This document shows positions 3,261-30,486 of a DNA stretch of 33,677 nt, in pieces (position 1 is the first letter of the stretch; each line of letters begins with the position of its first letter). The notes beneath the pieces are model-generated. The model searched no databases. It saw nothing but the letters and a program-made list of their open reading frames with translations, and was not told the DNA's origin. Position numbers and translations under genes: made by a program. Source of the stretch: a virus; IMG/VR virus record IMGVR_UViG_3300005095_000446, positions 1 through 33,677 of that record. One strand, 5' to 3'.

Positions 3261-3448
3261 AGGTTAACACCTTTTGGCTCTGGCTCTGTTGGCTCTGGAA
3301 GTTTTATTAGAGTGCCTTCTGGAATGATCGGTTGTGTGGTGAGTGCAGGATTGAGCCTAAGTATCTCCTGTGTATGATCAACAGAGTCAAATACCTCCAT
3401 GCTCACCTGGTCTGTTCTCATCTCGAACTCTGTTCTAAAATAACGCAA
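3251..3448 (-). CDS. X: Tail protein X, P2 gpX-like with LysM-like fold
   Basis: A 65-residue protein matching the small P2 gpX family. It has an N-terminal beta strand, a helix (VFDSVDHTQEILRLNPAL), and the Pro-rich loop ending IPEGTLIKLPEP that is typical of LysM-like tail proteins. Family members bridge the tube tip and the hub in P2-type tails. The stop overlaps the start of the gpD-like gene, and its own start lies within the 3' end of the gpU-like gene, so the three genes are tightly coupled. Confidence 0.9.
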   Translation of the reverse strand: MRYFRTEFEMRTDQVSMEVFDSVDHTQEILRLNPALTTQPIIPEGTLIKLPEPTEPEPKGVNLWS

Positions 3449-3839: not shown

Positions 3840-5943
3840 GCATTGTCCTTTGCTGCTTATGAAACTGTTGCCTAGAGACTGCATCTGCTACCGCTTGACC
3901 TACTGCTTCATTGGAGCTAGCGTTATTGACGGTAACATTAATGTGATAAGTATGCTGTTCTGGTCTGGCGGCTATAGTCTGTACGGTTTGTTGCAAAGCA
4001 CCATATTGTGATTTGAGACTTTCTAGTGCTGGCTTGACAGTATCTTGTTTTGTGGCGGTGTATCCAGTGGGTTGATAGATAGGTCTCTGCTGTGGAGCAG
4101 GTGCATGGAAAGCTCTCATCTTGGCAGCGTATCTTTGTGCCTGTGCTATCTTTTCTGGGCCTAACACAGGAGCGGTGACTGTGGGTGCTTTCCATCCTGT
4201 CTCTGCTCTGTGCTGTTGAAGCTGTGATCTCTTGCGTAGCTTTTCAAGCTGTGCGGTTTTGGCTTTGCTATTCTCGCCTACGATAAGAGTATGCCCTAGC
4301 TGTGACCAGAAACCATCCTCTCCTTTTGAGAGTTTTATCTCTTTTTCTAGCCGATCCTGCTTGGCTTTCATCTTTGGAATATTCGCTTTTGTCGGTGTGA
4401 TAGTTCGCTTATCGTCGATACGCTGTTTGGCTGCTTTGGAGATACGGTTTAGCTCAGACAGTACAAGAGCAACACCTGCGATCGATACACCAAGCACCAA
4501 TCCTTTTGCCCAGAGTGAGCGCGTAGAGCGTACAGTTTTGTTGAGACTTTTAATACTCTCGCCCGCTTTCCCTGCACTTGTTGGTATGCATCCTAGCTTA
4601 TCGCACTGTCTGCCTGTAGCACGGGTAAGTTTACCTAGTAGACCAACTCCGCTGGAAACAGGCTTCAGCATCATTCCTATACCCTTGACAAAAACACCAC
4701 CAACAACGCCAATCCCTCCAGCGACAACCAGAAATGCTGCAATGGCAGCTCCCGCTTCCCCTATGGTTTTGGCTAGTTTTGGATTTTCCTCTGCCCATTT
4801 ACCTATTTGTTCTGTTACTGATGTCATCTTTGTGACGATCTTTTGTATTGCAGGCAGAAAGAGTGATCCCAAATTGATAGCAACAGCAGAGATCCCATTA
4901 CCAAGTATTCTGAATTTATTGGCTGTTGTAGCAGCTCTGTTTTGGAACTCTCTTTCCATAGATCCAAGATACTCTTGCTCATTTGCAGTAAGCCTTAGAG
5001 CTTGTTCATACTTATCTAGCCCGCCGATCACAGTAGCAATCTCATCGGCAAACTCTCTACCCATGATATCTACCAGTATCCCCATCTGTTGATTCTTTGG
5101 CAGACGCTTGACAGACTGGAGAAAAGAAAGGATAGCCCCATTGGCATCTTTGCCGATCATCTTCTTTACTTGCTTGCCACTGAGCCCAATTTTTCTAAGA
5201 GCGGCTTGGAATTTCTTGCCGCCTTTGTCTGCGGTACCAAGCTTGGTAAGAAGACTATTAATTGCAGTCCCTGCTTTTTCCGCTGGTAGTCCCATTGCGA
5301 GAAAGCCATCAGCCAAGGCGGCCGTTTGCACTGCCGTAAGCCCAAATAAGTTAGCATTTCCTCCTATGCGTCCAAGCACATTTACGATATCACTGGCTTT
5401 TGCAGCGGTATTATCAGAGAGGTGATTGATCGCATCGCCGAGTTTGCCAGCCTCTGCAATACCTAGACCGTATACATTCATCAGTTTAGCGATAGAATCA
5501 CCCGCTACACTTGGCATCATATCAAATGCCGTGCTCATCTTTGCAACGGTTTTGGTAAATGGGATGATCTTGTCTTTGGCGATTCCTAGCTGACCAGCAC
5601 TAGCAGCTATCTGAGCCAAACCACTTGCTGCGATCGGTATAGTTTTAGAAAGCCCTACAATCTCACTGGAGAACTTTTTAAAATCACTTTTACTATCAAA
5701 ATTTACAACCTTTTTGACATCAGCCATTGCACTCTCAAAAGCCATCGCACTCTTGATAGGCTTGGAGAGTGCATACCCCATCGCTACACCTGTAGCCATA
5801 GTCTTTGCACCCATGCCTATCATGGCTGAGCCAACACGCTGTGATCGCTGAGAGAGAGTATCAATTTGCCTTTCGACATTGTCTAGTGCTTTTCCTGCAC
5901 GATTGGTAGCAGTGATAACGATGCCAAGCTTCATATTACTCAT
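3829..5943 (-). CDS. T: Phage tail tape measure protein
   Basis: A 704-residue tape measure protein. Residues about 50-330 form the conserved TP901-type core (MADVKKVVNFD, GQLGIAKDKIIPFTKTVAKMSTAFDM, ADGFLAMGLPAEKAGTAINSLL). Hydrophobic Gly-rich segments follow at about 395-430 (AAFLVVAGGIGVVGGVFVKG) and again near 485-500, and the C terminus is polar and Gln-rich. The protein sets tail length and is thought to enter the host envelope during infection. It starts at 5943, after AAGGGGAG and 8 bp inside the end of the frameshifted chaperone product, the usual place for a tape measure gene. Confidence 0.95.
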   Translation of the reverse strand: MSNMKLGIVITATNRAGKALDNVERQIDTLSQRSQRVGSAMIGMGAKTMATGVAMGYALSKPIKSAMAFESAMADVKKVVNFDSKSDFKKFSSEIVGLSKTIPIAASGLAQIAASAGQLGIAKDKIIPFTKTVAKMSTAFDMMPSVAGDSIAKLMNVYGLGIAEAGKLGDAINHLSDNTAAKASDIVNVLGRIGGNANLFGLTAVQTAALADGFLAMGLPAEKAGTAINSLLTKLGTADKGGKKFQAALRKIGLSGKQVKKMIGKDANGAILSFLQSVKRLPKNQQMGILVDIMGREFADEIATVIGGLDKYEQALRLTANEQEYLGSMEREFQNRAATTANKFRILGNGISAVAINLGSLFLPAIQKIVTKMTSVTEQIGKWAEENPKLAKTIGEAGAAIAAFLVVAGGIGVVGGVFVKGIGMMLKPVSSGVGLLGKLTRATGRQCDKLGCIPTSAGKAGESIKSLNKTVRSTRSLWAKGLVLGVSIAGVALVLSELNRISKAAKQRIDDKRTITPTKANIPKMKAKQDRLEKEIKLSKGEDGFWSQLGHTLIVGENSKAKTAQLEKLRKRSQLQQHRAETGWKAPTVTAPVLGPEKIAQAQRYAAKMRAFHAPAPQQRPIYQPTGYTATKQDTVKPALESLKSQYGALQQTVQTIAARPEQHTYHINVTVNNASSNEAVGQAVADAVSRQQFHKQQRTMHDL

Positions 5944-6300
5944 CTGCTCCCCTTTCTATAGATAGTGCAAAAAATTTAAAATCATCAAGGTACATCTCTA
6001 ACATATCACCATAACCAAAACCAAAAGACTGAGCTACATCACCCATCTGTTGAAGCATCTTAGTCCAGTGAGTTAGTTTCCCATCTCTACAAGTACATCC
6101 TGCAACTTTCCATAGTCTGCCCAAAGAAGATCATCTAGTTCTTCCTGAGTTAGTCCGGTTAGGTTGGATATCAAAGCAAACTCACGCTCTGCGTCATTGT
6201 CAATATGAGATACTGCTCTCATATCCTTGACCTTGATTTCTCTCATCGTTACTGTCTTGCCTCCAGACAGTGCTACTTTTGTATCTGTACTCTCACCCAT
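5936..6300 (-). CDS. Frameshift product of the tail assembly chaperone (E/E' fusion)
   Basis: The 75-residue chaperone frame (6300 to 6073) ends in a GGGAAAC heptamer immediately followed by TAA. A -1 slip there joins it to an overlapping open frame that runs to 5936 and adds about 46 residues (LTHWTKMLQQMGDVAQSFG onward), giving about 121 residues. The extension has no good start codon or ribosome binding site of its own. Tail chaperones of P2, lambda and many other phages are made as a short form and a frameshifted long form just ahead of the tape measure gene, as here. The slip is inferred from sequence. Confidence 0.85.
6073..6300 (-). CDS. E: Tail assembly chaperone, short form (P2 gpE-like)
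   Basis: A 75-residue acidic protein (KVKDMRAVSHIDNDAEREFALISNLTGLTQEELDDLLWADYGKLQDVL) of the small tail-assembly family between the tube and tape measure genes. In this family the pattern is an N-terminal strand with VTMREIKVKDM, a helical middle, and an acidic LTxEELDxLxxxDY segment. It is thought to coat the tape measure protein before tube polymerisation. The start ATG overlaps the tube gene stop by one base (TAATG). The stop lies directly after the slippery heptamer. Confidence 0.88.
   Translation of the reverse strand: MGESTDTKVALSGGKTVTMREIKVKDMRAVSHIDNDAEREFALISNLTGLTQEELDDLLWADYGKLQDVLVEMGN
6076..6082 (-). other. Programmed -1 ribosomal frameshift site (GGGAAAC)
   Basis: Read on the minus strand in the chaperone frame, the bases fall as G GGA AAC followed by TAA. 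This fits the X XXY YYZ rule for -1 slippage: GGA re-pairs on GGG and AAC on AAA. The next codon in the new frame is CTA, which opens the 46-codon extension. I saw no clear downstream pseudoknot or stem by eye; the stop codon directly after the heptamer could itself provide the pause. Confidence 0.85.
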
Positions 6301-23382: not shown

Positions 23383-23814
23383 TTATGGCTGATATCCAAC
23401 ATCATTCACCGCCTCTCTCTTCTTCAGCCCCTTGATCGCTCCGATGAGTTTGCCTGCTTCGCTACGGGTGAGACTGGAGAGATCATCGACCTCTCTACGC
23501 AAGATACGCTTGGCAAAACGCAGCAGAGAGAAGAGATCCTTGTAGGTACTGCGCTCCTGCCACTGGGTGAGGATATATCCTGTCTGTGCCTCAGAGGCTG
23601 TGGTGACAGCTGGCTCTGGTGTGCGACCTTGCAGGAATGCCAGCAGCTTGATGAGATCCTCGATACTCAGATCCGCTGAGCTACTCACACGGTAGTGGCT
23701 GGTCAAAAATGTCTCCCATAATTCACGATCCTCTGCAAAGGTCTGTTTGTAGAGCGGTGCAGTGTGTACCTGCCGCAACAGCCCACGACGATAGGCTTTT
23801 TGTTTGGCTGTCAT
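23383..23814 (-). CDS. gemA: GemA / Mu gp16-like regulatory protein (DUF1018)
   Basis: A 143-residue protein of the GemA/DUF1018 family. It begins TAKQKAYRRGLLRQVHTAPLYKQTFAEDRELWETFL, where a string of basic residues followed by a short helical domain and DLSIEDLIKLLAFL is typical. It continues with YILTQWQERSTYKDLFSLLRFAKRIL and ends SLTRSEAGKLIGAIKGLKK. In Mu, GemA modulates host DNA topology and gene expression early in infection. The ATG at 23814 follows AAAGGAG; the open frame extends upstream only as read-through of the neighbouring gene. Its 3' end is duplicated at 23042-23086. The REP-like copy C lies just before its ribosome binding site. Confidence 0.85.
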   Translation of the reverse strand: MTAKQKAYRRGLLRQVHTAPLYKQTFAEDRELWETFLTSHYRVSSSADLSIEDLIKLLAFLQGRTPEPAVTTASEAQTGYILTQWQERSTYKDLFSLLRFAKRILRREVDDLSSLTRSEAGKLIGAIKGLKKREAVNDVGYQP

Positions 23815-23829
23815 TTGTTCTCCTTTATG

Positions 23830-23846
23830 GTGGGGAGTCAGACCCC
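23830..23846. repeat. REP-like element, copy C (collapsed form)
   Basis: GTGGGGAGTCAGACCCC is exactly what remains if copy B (24690-24746) loses the interval between its two GTCAGACCC direct repeats. It lies just upstream of the gemA ribosome binding site and, on the minus strand, is followed by CCACCATAA just as copy B is before gam. The shared flank suggests that B and C arose by duplication of a 5' untranslated region. Confidence 0.65.
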
Positions 23847-24100
23847 TATCGTTTGGTTTGTGTATCCAGCCAGTGGCGTAGCTTGTCAGCAGTCTGAGGA
23901 TCAGTACCCAAGAGCAGCTGATTGAACCGCTCTCCATCACTGCTGAGCATCTCATAGAGTACACGCAGCAGCAGATCGATCGCCAGATCTGTCTGTGTCC
24001 TGTCCAGCTGCTCCCAAAACAGAGACGCAAAGGTCTCATACTGAGGGCTGAATGCATGCATCTCCCTCAGACGCACAGCGGCTTTGTCGGTTTTGTTCAT
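23846..24100 (-). CDS. Small early-operon hypothetical protein
   Basis: An 84-residue predicted helical protein (MNKTDKAAVRLREMHAFSPQYETFASLFWEQLDRTQTDLAIDLLLRVLYEML) with a basic C-terminal end (KLRHWLDTQTKR). I do not recognise a family and see no helix-turn-helix. The start has AAAAGGAG upstream. It lies between gam and gemA, where Mu carries small accessory early genes of largely unknown function. A perfect dyad (24131-24150) lies 31 bp upstream of its start. Confidence 0.65.
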   Translation of the reverse strand: MNKTDKAAVRLREMHAFSPQYETFASLFWEQLDRTQTDLAIDLLLRVLYEMLSSDGERFNQLLLGTDPQTADKLRHWLDTQTKR

Positions 24101-24168: not shown

Positions 24169-24669
24169 TCATTGCCCAACATCCACATCATTCTCTTTGG
24201 TCTCTACCCAGAACTGATCTTTGGAAGTGCGTCGTGCATGTACCAGAGCCAGACGCTCATCGCTCCACTCTTTCATGACATCCTTGTTGACCGTCGCTTT
24301 TGTTCGGATCGCTTCGGTAAAGCCATGCTCTTTGAGCAGGTCGACTGTCTCTTTTTTGGCAGAGATAGAGGTAGATTGTCGGAACCCAAAGAGTCCAAAT
24401 GTCAGTTCGATGGTCTTTTTGTCCTTGAAAAGCTCCTCTTTGTTGTATTCGCTATAGACAGAGAGGGATTTCTCTAGGGCATTGATCTCATCGATCATAG
24501 GGGTGCAGGTGGCTTTGAGTTTGTCTTTGACCGCATTGACAGCGATATCTGCCTCTGCCTCTGCCTGTCTGATTGTTGCACGCAGATCAGCGATCTGGTG
24601 CAGCACCTGGTCTGCCTGAGAGAGTGAGGTGATCTTGGTGATCTCCACTTTTGGTTTGCTTCTTGCCAT
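24169..24669 (-). CDS. gam: Gam, host-nuclease inhibitor (double-strand end binding)
   Basis: A 166-residue Mu Gam homologue. The family layout is clear: a long N-terminal antiparallel helix pair (ADQVLHQIADLRATIRQAEAEADIAVNAVKDKLKATCTPMIDEINALEKSLSVYSEYNKEELF), then the beta-strand signature KTIELTFGLFGFRQSTSI, and a C-terminal helix with VKATVNKDVMKEWSDERLA-like sequence. Gam dimers ring double-strand DNA ends, protect them from RecBCD/AddAB-type nucleases, and are related to bacterial Ku. Start ATG at 24669 follows AAAGGA. Its leader contains the REP-like copy B. Confidence 0.95.
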   Translation of the reverse strand: MARSKPKVEITKITSLSQADQVLHQIADLRATIRQAEAEADIAVNAVKDKLKATCTPMIDEINALEKSLSVYSEYNKEELFKDKKTIELTFGLFGFRQSTSISAKKETVDLLKEHGFTEAIRTKATVNKDVMKEWSDERLALVHARRTSKDQFWVETKENDVDVGQ

Positions 24670-25236: not shown

Positions 25237-25337
25237 GCACCCCACCGCTGCACGATCCACAGCTCCAGCTCTCTCATACTCACCACACCATCACTGATCA
25301 CCTGTGCGATCATCACTCTGTCTATCCGTAATCTCAT
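25233..25337 (-). CDS. 34-residue coupled small protein
   Basis: A short gene missed by length cut-offs: ATG at 25337, stop at 25233, encoding MRLRIDRVMIAQVISDGV followed by VSMRELELWIVQRWGA. AAAAGGAG lies seven bases before the start. Both ends overlap neighbours by four bases (ATGA with the HTH gene stop and ATGA with the next gene start), so it fits exactly into the coupled chain. Amphipathic helix-like; function unknown. Confidence 0.6.
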   Translation of the reverse strand: MRLRIDRVMIAQVISDGVVSMRELELWIVQRWGA

Positions 25338-25825
25338 GCTGTTCTCCTTTTGAACTCACTCAGACTCTCATAGAGATCCAAGCGTCCTTTCATATAGCCA
25401 TACTTGACGGCCATTTTGATCATTGCCAGATCTACCTCTGATTTTTTATCCGTGCTGACGCTCTCCTGATCGCTTTGTTCCATCTCAAGAAGCTCTCGCA
25501 CCACAGCCTCGGCATCAGGTACCGCCGTCGTCTCTGTTGGCTTCTGCGGGATAGACTCTTTGCCTTGCTCCTTTGGTGCAGCATCTTTGGACTCCTTTGC
25601 AGATCTTGCTGATTGTTTCTTTTTAGGAGGGCGTGTCTCCTGTACTCTCACATAGTTTTCATAGCTGCTCTGTGTGACCCGTTTACCCTCTGTCTCCAGT
25701 TTGCCTTTTTTGATCATGCTGTAGACTGTTTGTAGGCTTACACCCAGCTGATCAGCAACCCACTGCTTGGAGTAGCTCTTTTTACGCTTATTTGGGTTAG
25801 GCTCCAGTCCAGAGTAGGCGTACAC
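25334..25825 (-). CDS. Helix-turn-helix protein, downstream part of a poly-G-split gene
   Basis: This frame encodes 163 residues from a GTG at 25825. Residues about 15-60 (YSKQWVADQLGVSLQTVYSMIKKGKLETEGKRVTQSSYENYV) form a MerR/excisionase-like helix-turn-helix. A long basic linker (RPPKKKQSARSAKESKDAAPKEQ) and an acidic helical C-terminal part (MIKMAVKYGYMKGRLDLYESLSEF) follow. Directly upstream a second, similar HTH is encoded in the frame starting at 25947, and the two are separated by a tract of ten G. With 11 or 8 G the two frames join into one protein of about 204 residues. As sequenced the gene is split, and only reinitiation at the GTG could make this part. Probably a DNA-binding regulator. 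Confidence 0.7.
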   Translation of the reverse strand: MYAYSGLEPNPNKRKKSYSKQWVADQLGVSLQTVYSMIKKGKLETEGKRVTQSSYENYVRVQETRPPKKKQSARSAKESKDAAPKEQGKESIPQKPTETTAVPDAEAVVRELLEMEQSDQESVSTDKKSEVDLAMIKMAVKYGYMKGRLDLYESLSEFKRRTA

Positions 25826-25836
25826 AGACTCCAGTG

Positions 25837-25947
25837 TTACCCCCCCCCCTCTGCCTCCGTCAGCTCTTTGGTCTCTATCAGTAGTGTGATATCCTTTTGC
25901 GGCACATCCAGTCTGCGTGCCGCCTCTTTAATACTTATCGTTTCCAT
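25837..25947 (-). CDS. Helix-turn-helix protein, upstream part ending in the poly-G tract
   Basis: From the ATG at 25947 (AAAGGAG six bases upstream) the frame reads METISIKEAARRLDVPQKDI, then LLIETKELTEAEGGG and stops at TAA right after the ten-G tract, giving 36 residues. The segment matches the helix-turn-helix of the downstream part (IKEAARRLDVPQKDI against SKQWVADQLGVSLQT), so the full protein would hold two tandem HTH units. The strong ribosome binding site and the match across the tract show that this is the true start of the gene. In the sequenced state it is off. Confidence 0.7.
   Translation of the reverse strand: METISIKEAARRLDVPQKDITLLIETKELTEAEGGG
25840..25849 (-). repeat. Poly-G tract (10 G on the minus strand), likely phase-variation site
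   Basis: Ten consecutive G on the coding strand inside an open gene. Long poly-G tracts are the standard contingency switch in Campylobacterota, where slipped-strand replication changes length by one. Here 10 G closes the reading frame after 36 codons, 11 or 8 G opens the full gene of about 204 codons, and 9 G gives a third frame that stops soon. A homopolymer sequencing error could also produce the split. Confidence 0.75.
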
Positions 25948-25958
25948 CTGTTTCTCCT

Positions 25959-26027
25959 TTAATCTATCATTAATACGAGCATCCCGTAGATGCCTATCAT
26001 CACCATCCAAAAAAACAATTCCTCCAT
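25959..26027 (-). CDS. 22-residue hydrophobic microprotein
   Basis: ATG at 26027, preceded by AAAGGGG at five bases, encodes MEELFFWMVMIGIYGMLVLM plus two residues before a stop at 25959: one membrane helix and little else. It sits between the 16-codon frame and the HTH gene and follows the same tight packing. It could be a real membrane micropeptide of the early operon, or a short spurious frame. Confidence 0.45.
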   Translation of the reverse strand: MEELFFWMVMIGIYGMLVLMID

Positions 26028-26243: not shown

Positions 26244-27110
26244 TCAATCCAAAAACAGCATCGTACTGGCTGCATCGATATGACCGGCACTGAGTGCTTC
26301 GCCTTTCATGCGGGCGAAACGGGTCGCTTTGGCATAGAGATTGACCGCACGGCGTAGGTGTTTGGTATAGCGTCCTATCGTAGAGGCATGGGTACCAAAG
26401 AGCAGTGCAAAATCCTCTGAGCTGGGCTCTTTGAACTCCCACCGTCCTTGTATCCGACTATAGAGTTGGAGTAGTTCGCCTGAGTTCCCTTTGAGATTTT
26501 TGATCAATCCATAGGTACCGACCAGTATCACCGGTACTGCTGAGAAGTCATGGATACGACGCAGCACTTCGAGACCCTTGGTGGTCAGATGCTCTGCCTC
26601 ATCGATCAGCAGCACACCCTCACGCCGCTCAAACTCTCTAGCGATTGCCCAGATGAGCTCATCACCACCTCGTACACCGCTGATACCGAGTTTGGCAGCG
26701 ATGAGTTTGAGTAGGCTGTCCACACGGATACCAGGTACCACTTCGATAAAGATCGTCTCCGGGTGTGAGGCGGCAAATGCTCTAGCCACCACACTTTTGC
26801 CAGTACCTGGCATCCCATAGAGTACGGCCATCTCTTGGTTAACGATGGCTTCATCTGCGACGAACATCGCAGCAGTATAGTTACTCAGATCCATCGTCTC
26901 CAGAGTGTTATGGGAACTGTTAGCCTGTTTTGTGCTATAATTCTCCATGAAGTTTTTCAAGTTGACTTCTAGCGTTTTGGTATCTCCGGCATATTTGCCA
27001 GAGAGCCATTGAGAGATCTGAGAGCTGCTGACTCCCAGAGATCTCGCTACATGCGCCTGTCTCAACCCCTCTTTTTCCAAGAAATTCTTGAATTTTTCCT
27101 GTTGTTTCAT
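26244..27110 (-). CDS. B: Mu B-like ATP-dependent target-DNA activator (AAA+ ATPase)
   Basis: A 288-residue homologue of Mu B. The N-terminal helix-turn-helix (GLRQAHVARSLGVSSSQISQWLSGKY, about 15-40) is followed by the AAA+ core: Walker A GMPGTGKS (99-106), Walker B VLLIDEAEHL (166-175), and sensor-like VPVILVGTYGL. A C-terminal helical part (HLRRAVNLYAKATRFARMKGEALSAGHIDAA) follows. B filaments on DNA, delivers target DNA to transposase A and gives target immunity. The ATG at 27110 follows AAAGG. Unlike in Mu, a zinc-ribbon gene and a structured gap of about 320 bp separate it from A. Confidence 0.93.
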   Translation of the reverse strand: MKQQEKFKNFLEKEGLRQAHVARSLGVSSSQISQWLSGKYAGDTKTLEVNLKNFMENYSTKQANSSHNTLETMDLSNYTAAMFVADEAIVNQEMAVLYGMPGTGKSVVARAFAASHPETIFIEVVPGIRVDSLLKLIAAKLGISGVRGGDELIWAIAREFERREGVLLIDEAEHLTTKGLEVLRRIHDFSAVPVILVGTYGLIKNLKGNSGELLQLYSRIQGRWEFKEPSSEDFALLFGTHASTIGRYTKHLRRAVNLYAKATRFARMKGEALSAGHIDAASTMLFLD

Positions 27111-27431: not shown

Positions 27432-27650
27432 CTACTCCTCCCAGGGATCGCTTTTTGTCTCCTCTTTGTCGATTTCTCCAATATCTTGCATATAGGTCAC
27501 ATACTCCAGATTGAGGGTATCGACATAGACAGACTCTTTGGTTTGAAACAGATGGCCACACGCCACACACGATCGGTAGCGAAAATTATTGATCCCTTTT
27601 TGTGTCTTGTAGACCCTTGTTTTATCGTGACCACATCTTGGACAGTCCAT
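27432..27650 (-). CDS. Zinc-ribbon protein between transposase A and B
   Basis: A 72-residue protein with a four-cysteine zinc ribbon: CPRC (C3, C6) and CVAC (C28, C31) in the setting MDCPRCGHDKTRVYKTQKG and FRYRSCVACGHLFQTKESV. This resembles the N-terminal ribbon of NrdR and the Ogr/Delta-type regulators in spacing. The remainder is acidic (DIGEIDKEETKSDPWEE). It begins 2 bp after the stop of A, so it is co-translated with it. Mu has no such gene between A and B. A DNA-binding or protein-contact role in transposition or in late regulation is possible. Confidence 0.75.
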   Translation of the reverse strand: MDCPRCGHDKTRVYKTQKGINNFRYRSCVACGHLFQTKESVYVDTLNLEYVTYMQDIGEIDKEETKSDPWEE

Positions 27651-27652
27651 CT

Positions 27653-29467
27653 CTAGTACCCCGCTGCTTTCATGATATCAGCCATAGCATCCTGTGCAGG
27701 ATCTAGTGTTTTAGTCACTTTCTTTGCCTTGGGTTGTGCTGCATAGGTAGGCTTGTAACCAAGCAGATCAGAGACCACGGCATCCTGATAGGCTTCGTAT
27801 GCCCGTGCTCCCTCTCTCACCTCTGCACGCATTGGTGCGACTCTGTTGCGGTGGTTGGCTCTCTTGGCTGCTTTGTGCTCTTCGAGGCTCATGGCAGCAA
27901 CGCCCAGATCTCTATTGAGTGCTTCACAGACGAACAGACCCTCATGATAGACATAGACACGATTGATATCATCGATATCCTCATAGACTTCGACCTGATC
28001 TCCTTTGCCAAGACCATTGATCCAGAGATCAGCAGAGATATAGGTATAGCCGTTGAACTTGATGCCATCCTGGTGCAGTGGTCTGGTGGCTCTCTTGCCG
28101 AGTTTGCGTCTGATATCCTCCATCTGATCACTCTCAAGCAGGTGTCCAGCCTGTGCCTGATAGTCTGCACAACGCTGTGCCAGGATACTTTCGATGATCT
28201 GCTCCATCTCGCCGAAGGACAATAGACGATCTGGGTTGATGCGTGTGGCTTTGGAGGTGCGGATATCGATCTTGGAGGCGGTCTGGTTCTCTATGTGGGT
28301 ACGCTTGGAGACATCATTGCCGATATAGCCTGGCAATTTGGCAAGCTCTGTCTGGAGAGAGCCAAAGAACCGCTCTATTTTGCCTTTTTGTCTGCCTTGT
28401 CCTACCTCTGCACTGATATCGATGATGCCCATATCGTCCAGTACACTCTGGTAGTGGGTAGAGGCATAGTCCATACCGTTGTCCATATAGATCTGTTCAG
28501 GCAGTCCCATACGACCAAAGGCTTTATAGAGCACTCTGACCTGGGCATAGGAGTCTATGGATTGGTGGAGTGTGGCTACGGCATTGCCCGTATGGACATC
28601 GATGACCGCAGTGAGGTTGTGTCTGGCGATCTTGACCGATCCATCCTCCTGTACTAGCTTGACCATGAAGTCAAATCTTGTGGCATCCACTTGCCACTCT
28701 TGATTGGTGTAGGTGATATCTTTGATACCTACAGGATAGCTCTGGAGCAGTCCATCGTGCCCTTTTGTCCAGTAATCATAGAGCAGGGCATCACTCTGGA
28801 GTAGTTTTCGGATCCCTCTGCTGATGGCGGTATAGGAGATCACTTTGCTGCGATCTGGATCAAACCCCTCACTGTGTGCCTGCTGCCAGAGATAACAGTA
28901 GAGATCCCAGATACCGTAGTAGTTCTCTCTGATACCTCTAGCACCCGCCCCGACGATCGCTTTGCGTAGCAGTGCTTCATCTATCTTTTTGAACAGGCTC
29001 TTTTTTTTGCCTCTTTTATCCTCCAGAGCAGCTTTGCCACCCTCTTCAAAAGACTTCTTCCAGCGATTGAATTTGCGACTCAGTGCCTCGATCTGCTTGG
29101 AGGTAGTGAGCGGATCCAAACTCTTGATAATAGTTTTCATCGTATAGTTATACTGCTTGATGAAACGCACTAGCAAAAGCTTCTCCTCCACAGAGTGCTT
29201 GGACGCATGCAGATCAAACCCATCCAACTCCTCCAATCTCTCCCAAGTGATCGCACTGGAAGTCGTAGAGCGTCTAGGCTTTTTGAGTGTGAGCGGACGG
29301 TAAGCATACACCAATCCACGCCCACCGATACCAGGTACCTGCGAAAAACCAAAGCTCTGCCCCTTGACAGTGATACAGGATTGGTCAGACTGGAGTGCTT
29401 TTTTTGTTAAGTTTTGGATATATTGAGAAGAACATTCAACAGATTGTGCAAGCTGCTTTGTTGTCAT
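27653..29467 (-). CDS. A: Mu A-like DDE transposase
   Basis: A 604-residue transposase of the Mu A/Rve type. The N-terminal part (about 1-230) holds helix-turn-helix DNA-binding regions (KQLAQSVECSSQYIQNLTKKAL; EALSRKFNRWKKSFEEGGKAALEDKRGKKK). The catalytic core shows D261 (EWQVDATRFDF), D329 (IYMDNGMDYAS) and E365 (KGKIERFFGSL), with 35 residues between the second Asp and the Glu as in DDE integrases. The Mu-type C-terminal barrel follows (YTYISADLWINGLGKGDQVEVYED). The last residues (VTKTLDPAQDAMADIMKAAGY) probably contact B. The protein binds the 28-bp ends and moves the prophage with a 5-bp duplication. All catalytic residues are intact. Confidence 0.95.
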   Translation of the reverse strand: MTTKQLAQSVECSSQYIQNLTKKALQSDQSCITVKGQSFGFSQVPGIGGRGLVYAYRPLTLKKPRRSTTSSAITWERLEELDGFDLHASKHSVEEKLLLVRFIKQYNYTMKTIIKSLDPLTTSKQIEALSRKFNRWKKSFEEGGKAALEDKRGKKKSLFKKIDEALLRKAIVGAGARGIRENYYGIWDLYCYLWQQAHSEGFDPDRSKVISYTAISRGIRKLLQSDALLYDYWTKGHDGLLQSYPVGIKDITYTNQEWQVDATRFDFMVKLVQEDGSVKIARHNLTAVIDVHTGNAVATLHQSIDSYAQVRVLYKAFGRMGLPEQIYMDNGMDYASTHYQSVLDDMGIIDISAEVGQGRQKGKIERFFGSLQTELAKLPGYIGNDVSKRTHIENQTASKIDIRTSKATRINPDRLLSFGEMEQIIESILAQRCADYQAQAGHLLESDQMEDIRRKLGKRATRPLHQDGIKFNGYTYISADLWINGLGKGDQVEVYEDIDDINRVYVYHEGLFVCEALNRDLGVAAMSLEEHKAAKRANHRNRVAPMRAEVREGARAYEAYQDAVVSDLLGYKPTYAAQPKAKKVTKTLDPAQDAMADIMKAAGY

Positions 29468-29769: not shown

Positions 29770-29805
29770 GACATTTTGCGAACTTTGGTAAAAAAAGGAT
29801 ATTTA

Positions 29806-30486
29806 ATGAACAGGGTGAAGAGTATATTAGACAGACTCTATAGAAAGCTAGGCATAGCCTCTGATAGTGAGTTTTGCAGTATATACAATATCAAAAAGAA
29901 TACGCTTAGCACATGGAAAAAGAGGGATTCTATACCCTATGAGCTATTAGAGAGAATTTCGCAAAATGCGAACTTATCACTAGATTGGGTACTGTTGGGA
30001 AAAGAAGAACATGGAAATACTGTCGAAGAAGCACCTATAAGCTATTTTAAACAAGACAAAAAGCCTACACAGATCAAATACTATCCTGAGATCTACGCAT
30101 CAGCAGGATATGGTGCCAACAACGATGATGAAGGAGCGGAGATCATGACACTGGAGCACTTTATGCTCACCACGCTCCAGATCATAGATCCGTCACAGAT
30201 AGAGATCATTCGTATTCATGGTGATTCGATGGAGCCAGACTTTCGCAATGGAGAGTATGTCATCGCAGAGCGTGTACCAGGGATAGAAGCAGTCAAAACA
30301 GGCAATGTCATTATCGCCAATATTTCAGGAGAGATATTCATCAAAAGGATAGAGAAGATCCCATTCCAGGAACGCATCATCCTCAAGAGCTGCAACAACG
30401 CATACGATCCTATCATCATAGAAGGATCCAACCTCAAACACCTCACGATCACAGCGATTGTCAGAGGGTCTGTCAAGCCACACTAA
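29806..30486 (+). CDS. LexA/CI-like phage repressor (HTH plus S24 peptidase)
   Basis: A 226-residue repressor. The N-terminal helix-turn-helix (LGIASDSEFCSIYNIKKNTLSTWKKRDSIPYELLERI, about 15-51) is of the phage CI type. The C-terminal S24 domain shows GDSMEPDF with nucleophile S141 and FIKRI with K180, and a candidate Ala-Gly self-cleavage site at 100-101 (YASAGYG). It should hold the early promoter off in the lysogen and be cleaved upon RecA activation, making the phage SOS-inducible, unlike classical Mu c. The ATG at 29806 follows AAAGGAT; an earlier ATG at 29776 lacks a good site. Four exported-protein genes follow at once. Confidence 0.92.
   Translation: MNRVKSILDRLYRKLGIASDSEFCSIYNIKKNTLSTWKKRDSIPYELLERISQNANLSLDWVLLGKEEHGNTVEEAPISYFKQDKKPTQIKYYPEIYASAGYGANNDDEGAEIMTLEHFMLTTLQIIDPSQIEIIRIHGDSMEPDFRNGEYVIAERVPGIEAVKTGNVIIANISGEIFIKRIEKIPFQERIILKSCNNAYDPIIIEGSNLKHLTITAIVRGSVKPH
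29958..29972. promoter_or_regulatory. Palindromic operator-like site TTCGCA-AAA-TGCGAA inside the repressor gene
   Basis: A perfect six-base inverted repeat with a three-base spacer, whose half-site TGCGAA recurs twice at the early promoter (29755-29760, 29777-29782). The site lies about 150 bp into the repressor coding region and might allow self-control by a roadblock or DNA loop. Confidence 0.5.

Follow-up and report, generated by a model that had tools for sequence, protein, structure and literature searches.

In a Mu-like (transposable) prophage whose host belongs to the Campylobacterota, an early gene for a putative DNA-binding protein with two tandem winged helix-turn-helix (wHTH) domains appears to be broken by a homopolymer of ten G that divides it between two reading frames. 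The window analysed here spans all 33,677 bases of an IMG/VR virus record, and the reading of positions 25947-25334 as one gene is supported by comparison with related prophages. Phase variation of this gene through changes in tract length is plausible, though unproven, and in our judgement the case for it is evenly balanced. The elements at the tract are the following.

25954-25960, minus strand: ribosome-binding site AAAGGAG before ATG 25947, read from the sequence
25837-25947, minus strand: upstream frame, whose 36 aa make up the beginning of the first wHTH, cut within the wing
25840-25849, minus strand: ten-G homopolymer located in the first wHTH's wing loop, with the upstream-frame TAA directly after it
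25334-25839, minus strand: downstream frame, with the end of the first wHTH (VTLESVYAYSGL), a complete second wHTH, a charged linker and a helical tail (YESLSEFKRR)

The tract occupies exactly positions 25849-25840 of the minus strand and is followed immediately by TAA (25839-25837). The frame opened by ATG 25947, which the AAAGGAG at 25960-25954 precedes at normal spacing, enters the tract and terminates at this TAA, so that its product is the 36-aa peptide METISIKEAARRLDVPQKDITLLIETKELTEAEGGG. A second frame continues past the tract to 25334 and yields 163 aa when read from GTG 25825; joined, the two frames encode 204 aa with eleven G or 203 aa with eight G. The sequence bears out the first-pass annotation, which had described the ten-G tract, the TAA right after it and a strong ribosome-binding site at ATG 25947, and had proposed that one added or two lost G would fuse the frames into about 204 residues. 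The longest other run of G or C on either strand of the window is 6, and runs of at least 10 appeared in 2/300, 0/300 and 3/300 windows simulated under Markov models of order 1, 2 and 3, respectively, trained on the rest of the window with the ten-G tract excluded; the tract is therefore beyond chance.

The window is a Mu-like prophage, since homologues of MuA and MuB, Gam and GemA are found in a single early operon. The gene order is repressor, transposase, zinc ribbon, MuB, a 64-aa ORF (26262-26068), a 22-codon ORF, the broken gene, small ORFs, Gam and GemA, and the recognizable members are listed below.

29776-30486, plus strand: CI-like repressor with an S24 peptidase domain
27653-29467, minus strand: MuA-like transposase
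27432-27650, minus strand: small NrdR-like zinc-ribbon protein, which recurs in related early operons
26244-27110, minus strand: MuB-like transposition ATPase, the synteny anchor with relatives
24169-24669, minus strand: Mu Gam-like end-protection protein
23383-24057, minus strand: GemA (Mu gp16) family protein

The 22-codon ORF (25959-26027, minus strand) is hydrophobic, encodes MEELFFWMVMIGIYGMLVLMID, possibly a membrane micropeptide, and has its end at the broken gene's ribosome-binding site.

The joined protein was searched against 397 Campylobacterota genomes. A homologue in one of them (G366) covers residues 2-202 in one open frame, and a profile search added homologues in two more (G130 and G774). 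All three occupy the place that the gene has in the window, after MuB and before the GemA-type gene, and because these syntenic homologues are single open frames, 25334-25947 is read as one gene. Both flanks of the tract are conserved in the residues of the homologues; with eleven G, the junction TEAEGGGVTLESVYAYSGL aligns without gaps to TEYGRTQVTKQSVYDLSGL, and the joined 204-aa protein aligns in this way to two of the three homologues. The proposal that a tandem helix-turn-helix gene is split by the tract is thus upheld by three Mu-like prophages that carry a full-length, uninterrupted homologue without a G tract, and no G or C run of at least 7 was found in the three fetched loci. An arrangement as two genes, each with a conserved start of its own, which the first-pass annotation had named as speaking against a split gene, is ruled out by the single frames of the homologues. 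Its description of the frame from GTG 25825 holds in part: the frame is open, 163 aa long and contains a second helix-turn-helix, but GTG is no conserved start, its position being internal to the protein in relatives (SVYDLSGL), where the residues between tract and GTG (VTLES) are matched by VTKQS.

Domain analysis points in the same direction. The Pfam family HTH_17 (PF12728; gathering cut-off 27 bits) matches the joined protein with 32.9 bits, whereas the downstream and upstream parts score 22.3 and 14.8 bits, respectively; the cut-off is passed by the joined protein and by neither part alone, which supports one gene. In an AlphaFold model of the downstream part alone, a confident wHTH is seen at residues ~17-63, together with C-terminal helices, and these results support the earlier observation of a second, similar helix-turn-helix in this frame; comparison with this second domain assigns the tract to the first wHTH's wing loop. 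Based on domain type, the joined protein would bind DNA. Its single domains are alike in fold to small wHTH proteins of the excisionase/MerR-like kind (HTH_17, PHROG 66, Pukovnik Xis, BldC), whereas the window protein has two tandem domains and a tail, and because the phage is transposable, this protein is not expected to act in site-specific excision. The best solved structures matched by Foldseek, phage Pukovnik Xis and BldC, are weak matches (best E 0.022) and, as small wHTH domains only, were dismissed as a guide to the target.

The two closest relatives, L178 (MuB identity 50%) and L179 (58%), have no copy of the gene in the interval from MuB to the GemA-type gene. It is therefore accessory, and its loss may cost little. 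Mu-like phages of Helicobacter and Campylobacter have early operons with the same transposase, MuB, Gam, GemA-type and repressor modules as the window; in contrast, no homologue of the tandem-wHTH gene was detected in loci that were retrieved through their MuB from Helicobacter, Campylobacter and IMG/VR, and a search of IMG/VR and phage records gave no near relatives of the joined protein. A two-domain relative is present in a different prophage (L202). Six further loci (L142, L143, L192-L195), in which only the second domain and linker were covered, were set aside as generic; no other window genes occur near the matches in L142 and L143.

In the proposed mechanism, the poly-G would have grown in this lineage within the stretch of codons that specifies the first domain's wing. 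With ten G, the gene would be OFF, its frame being broken and its own start yielding the 36-aa fragment only, whereas eleven G, the length matching the intact relatives, would switch it ON and produce the full 204-aa protein, and eight G would also restore the frame. Strand slippage in the tract during replication would toggle the gene between these states, tract length would be expected to vary in living populations, and switching would presumably be under selection. Several properties of the locus agree with this model. The ten G lie on the coding strand inside a reading frame and exceed the cut-off of at least 7 G/C applied to poly-G phase-variable genes (PMC6321876), and at other tract lengths the gene yields a conserved full-length protein that can be aligned end to end with single-frame homologues. 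The length of 10, the G on the coding strand and the position within the ORF match the catalogue of Campylobacter poly-G phase-variable genes (PMC6321876), and the poly-G genes of Campylobacter and Helicobacter (PMC6321876, PMC2823697) are similarly turned ON or OFF by frame; these are, however, host genes, mostly surface-related in C. jejuni, whereas the gene in the window belongs to a phage.

The nearest known case within a phage of Campylobacterota is provided by the receptor-binding proteins of Campylobacter phages, whose hypermutable poly-G tracts vary in length with a phenotype (Sorensen et al. 2021, Cell Rep. 35:109214, as cited in PMC10877375 and PMC11868660). According to these accounts, the tract likewise lies inside a phage gene, but the Campylobacter phages have a receptor-binding protein for which variation was demonstrated, whereas here the gene encodes an early DNA-binding protein of a Mu-like phage and switching is deduced from one sequence. 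In the literature searched, simple-repeat phase variation within phage genes was reported for receptor-binding proteins, and its occurrence on a phage DNA-binding protein would be new. If the switch is real, phage behaviour beyond adsorption would become a heritable random state.

Comparison of related prophages for tracts of 8-11 G, suggested by the first-pass annotation, gave no such series: 0 of the three full-length homologues has a tract, and a switch at this position is thus not evolutionarily conserved. A pattern scan of IMG/VR for these flanks around a tract of different length found none, in collections that may omit records very near the window, and a transposase scan for a second copy of the prophage found none either.

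The use of poly-G by potential hosts was assessed in the genomes nearest to the host as judged by the flanking Crp-type gene (G051, G200, G078 and G149; 46-56% identity). Tracts of nine or more G number 0-1 per genome in these four, so the host lineage makes no wide use of poly-G contingency, and 0-2 per genome when the three genomes with homologues and two others (G344 and G129) are included, compared with 61 in Campylobacter gastrosuis (G001) and 26 in Helicobacter suis (G002). Across the eleven genomes counted, poly-G usage in Campylobacterota is sharply unequal. Genome G344, whose transposase is the nearest full-length one (44% identity), contains two paralogous repeat-protein genes (Sel1/TPR-like; L214 and L219), each split by G9 at the same place. 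This pair looks phase-variable, and it is therefore plausible that this part of the phylum has a poly-G mechanism. The idea of a host-style contingency switch is accordingly doubtful with respect to the nearest genomes, while the two G9-split paralogues speak for it. We regard as tentative the further proposal that the tract is a recently gained poly-G locus for bet-hedging at the level of the phage, in a host lineage almost without such tracts, which through an early DNA-binding protein would randomly preset the lysogeny, transposition or superinfection behaviour of each lysogen.

What the switched protein might control was also considered. The first-pass annotation had recognized no late activator of the Mor/C type, in agreement with the absence of a Mor family match for the tandem-wHTH gene and the other early ORFs scanned, and had suggested that the broken gene could decide late gene expression. 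This suggestion is weakened, because the gene is dispensable in relatives, lacks a Mor/C match and competes with the recurrent zinc-ribbon gene, leaving a role in late transcription unsupported. The NrdR-like zinc-ribbon gene, located between MuA and MuB in the window and usually near the GemA-type gene, often adjoining it, in relatives, is probably at least as good a candidate for the late activator. The combined scenario of late-gene control and stochastic induction is speculative.

Among the alternatives to switching, a sequencing or assembly error is unlikely. Indel errors are commonest at long homopolymers. Under this explanation the gene would be intact, with a true tract of eleven (or eight) G, and eleven G is exactly the length that fits the intact relatives. 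Against it, other genes of the window with runs of A7, A8 and C6 are intact, and even a true tract of 8-11 G would be slip-prone, so that the gene could still vary. Generally poor assembly is unsupported, as homopolymer-bearing genes elsewhere in the window are intact. Should the tract prove fixed, the locus would still illustrate that a homopolymer can conceal a complete phage gene and mislead annotation into two small ORFs.

Plain decay, in which chance slippage in a dispensable gene left a fixed null allele and no selected switch, is in our view distinctly unlikely. It is possible because the gene is accessory, and it is favoured by the absence of the gene from the two closest relatives, by the lack of a tract in any homologue and by the low use of poly-G in the nearest host genomes. 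However, no second disabling change is present: both frames are open from end to end and the gene retains an intact ribosome-binding site, which gives no further sign of decay and implies that a null allele, if any, is recent.

Recoding is less likely, and we consider it improbable. Here, the G run would cause -1 ribosomal frameshifting or slippage in transcription and direct a share of synthesis into the full-length protein at a fixed ratio of short to long product. A slippery heptamer in the right frame (G GGG GGG) stands immediately before the TAA, and the -1 shift that is needed, immediately ahead of a stop codon, has the geometry of the phage's own tail-chaperone site, where the classic signal GGGAAAC-TAA at 6082-6073 joins two overlapping tail-chaperone-like ORFs (6073-6300 and 5936-6124, minus strand). 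Nevertheless, the tract is conserved in no homologue, the RNA 3' of it folds no better than shuffled sequences (z -0.46, pseudoknot-free folding), and in E. coli the lowest frameshifting of any construct, 0.018%, came from an all-G heptamer ending in U without a stimulator, G_GG.G_GG.U (PMC4066793).

It is very improbable that slippage toggles between two- and one-domain isoforms, the ten-G state permitting a restart at GTG 25825: although this codon lies 11 nt past the stop with GGAG just 5' of it and the 163-aa product contains the complete second wHTH, the GGAG-GTG spacing is only 3 nt and relatives have the GTG position inside the protein.

Poly-G tracts were also listed for further prophage loci (L018, L019, L049, L101 and others), and none was traced to the tandem-wHTH gene. 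In a Helicobacter bilis locus (L049), a C13 run at 3347-3359 lies shortly before a MuB-like gene that was matched over residues 113-287 only. In a Campylobacter gastrosuis prophage locus (L018), consecutive C9, A10 and G10 runs at 5564-5592 form a perfect homopolymer hairpin.
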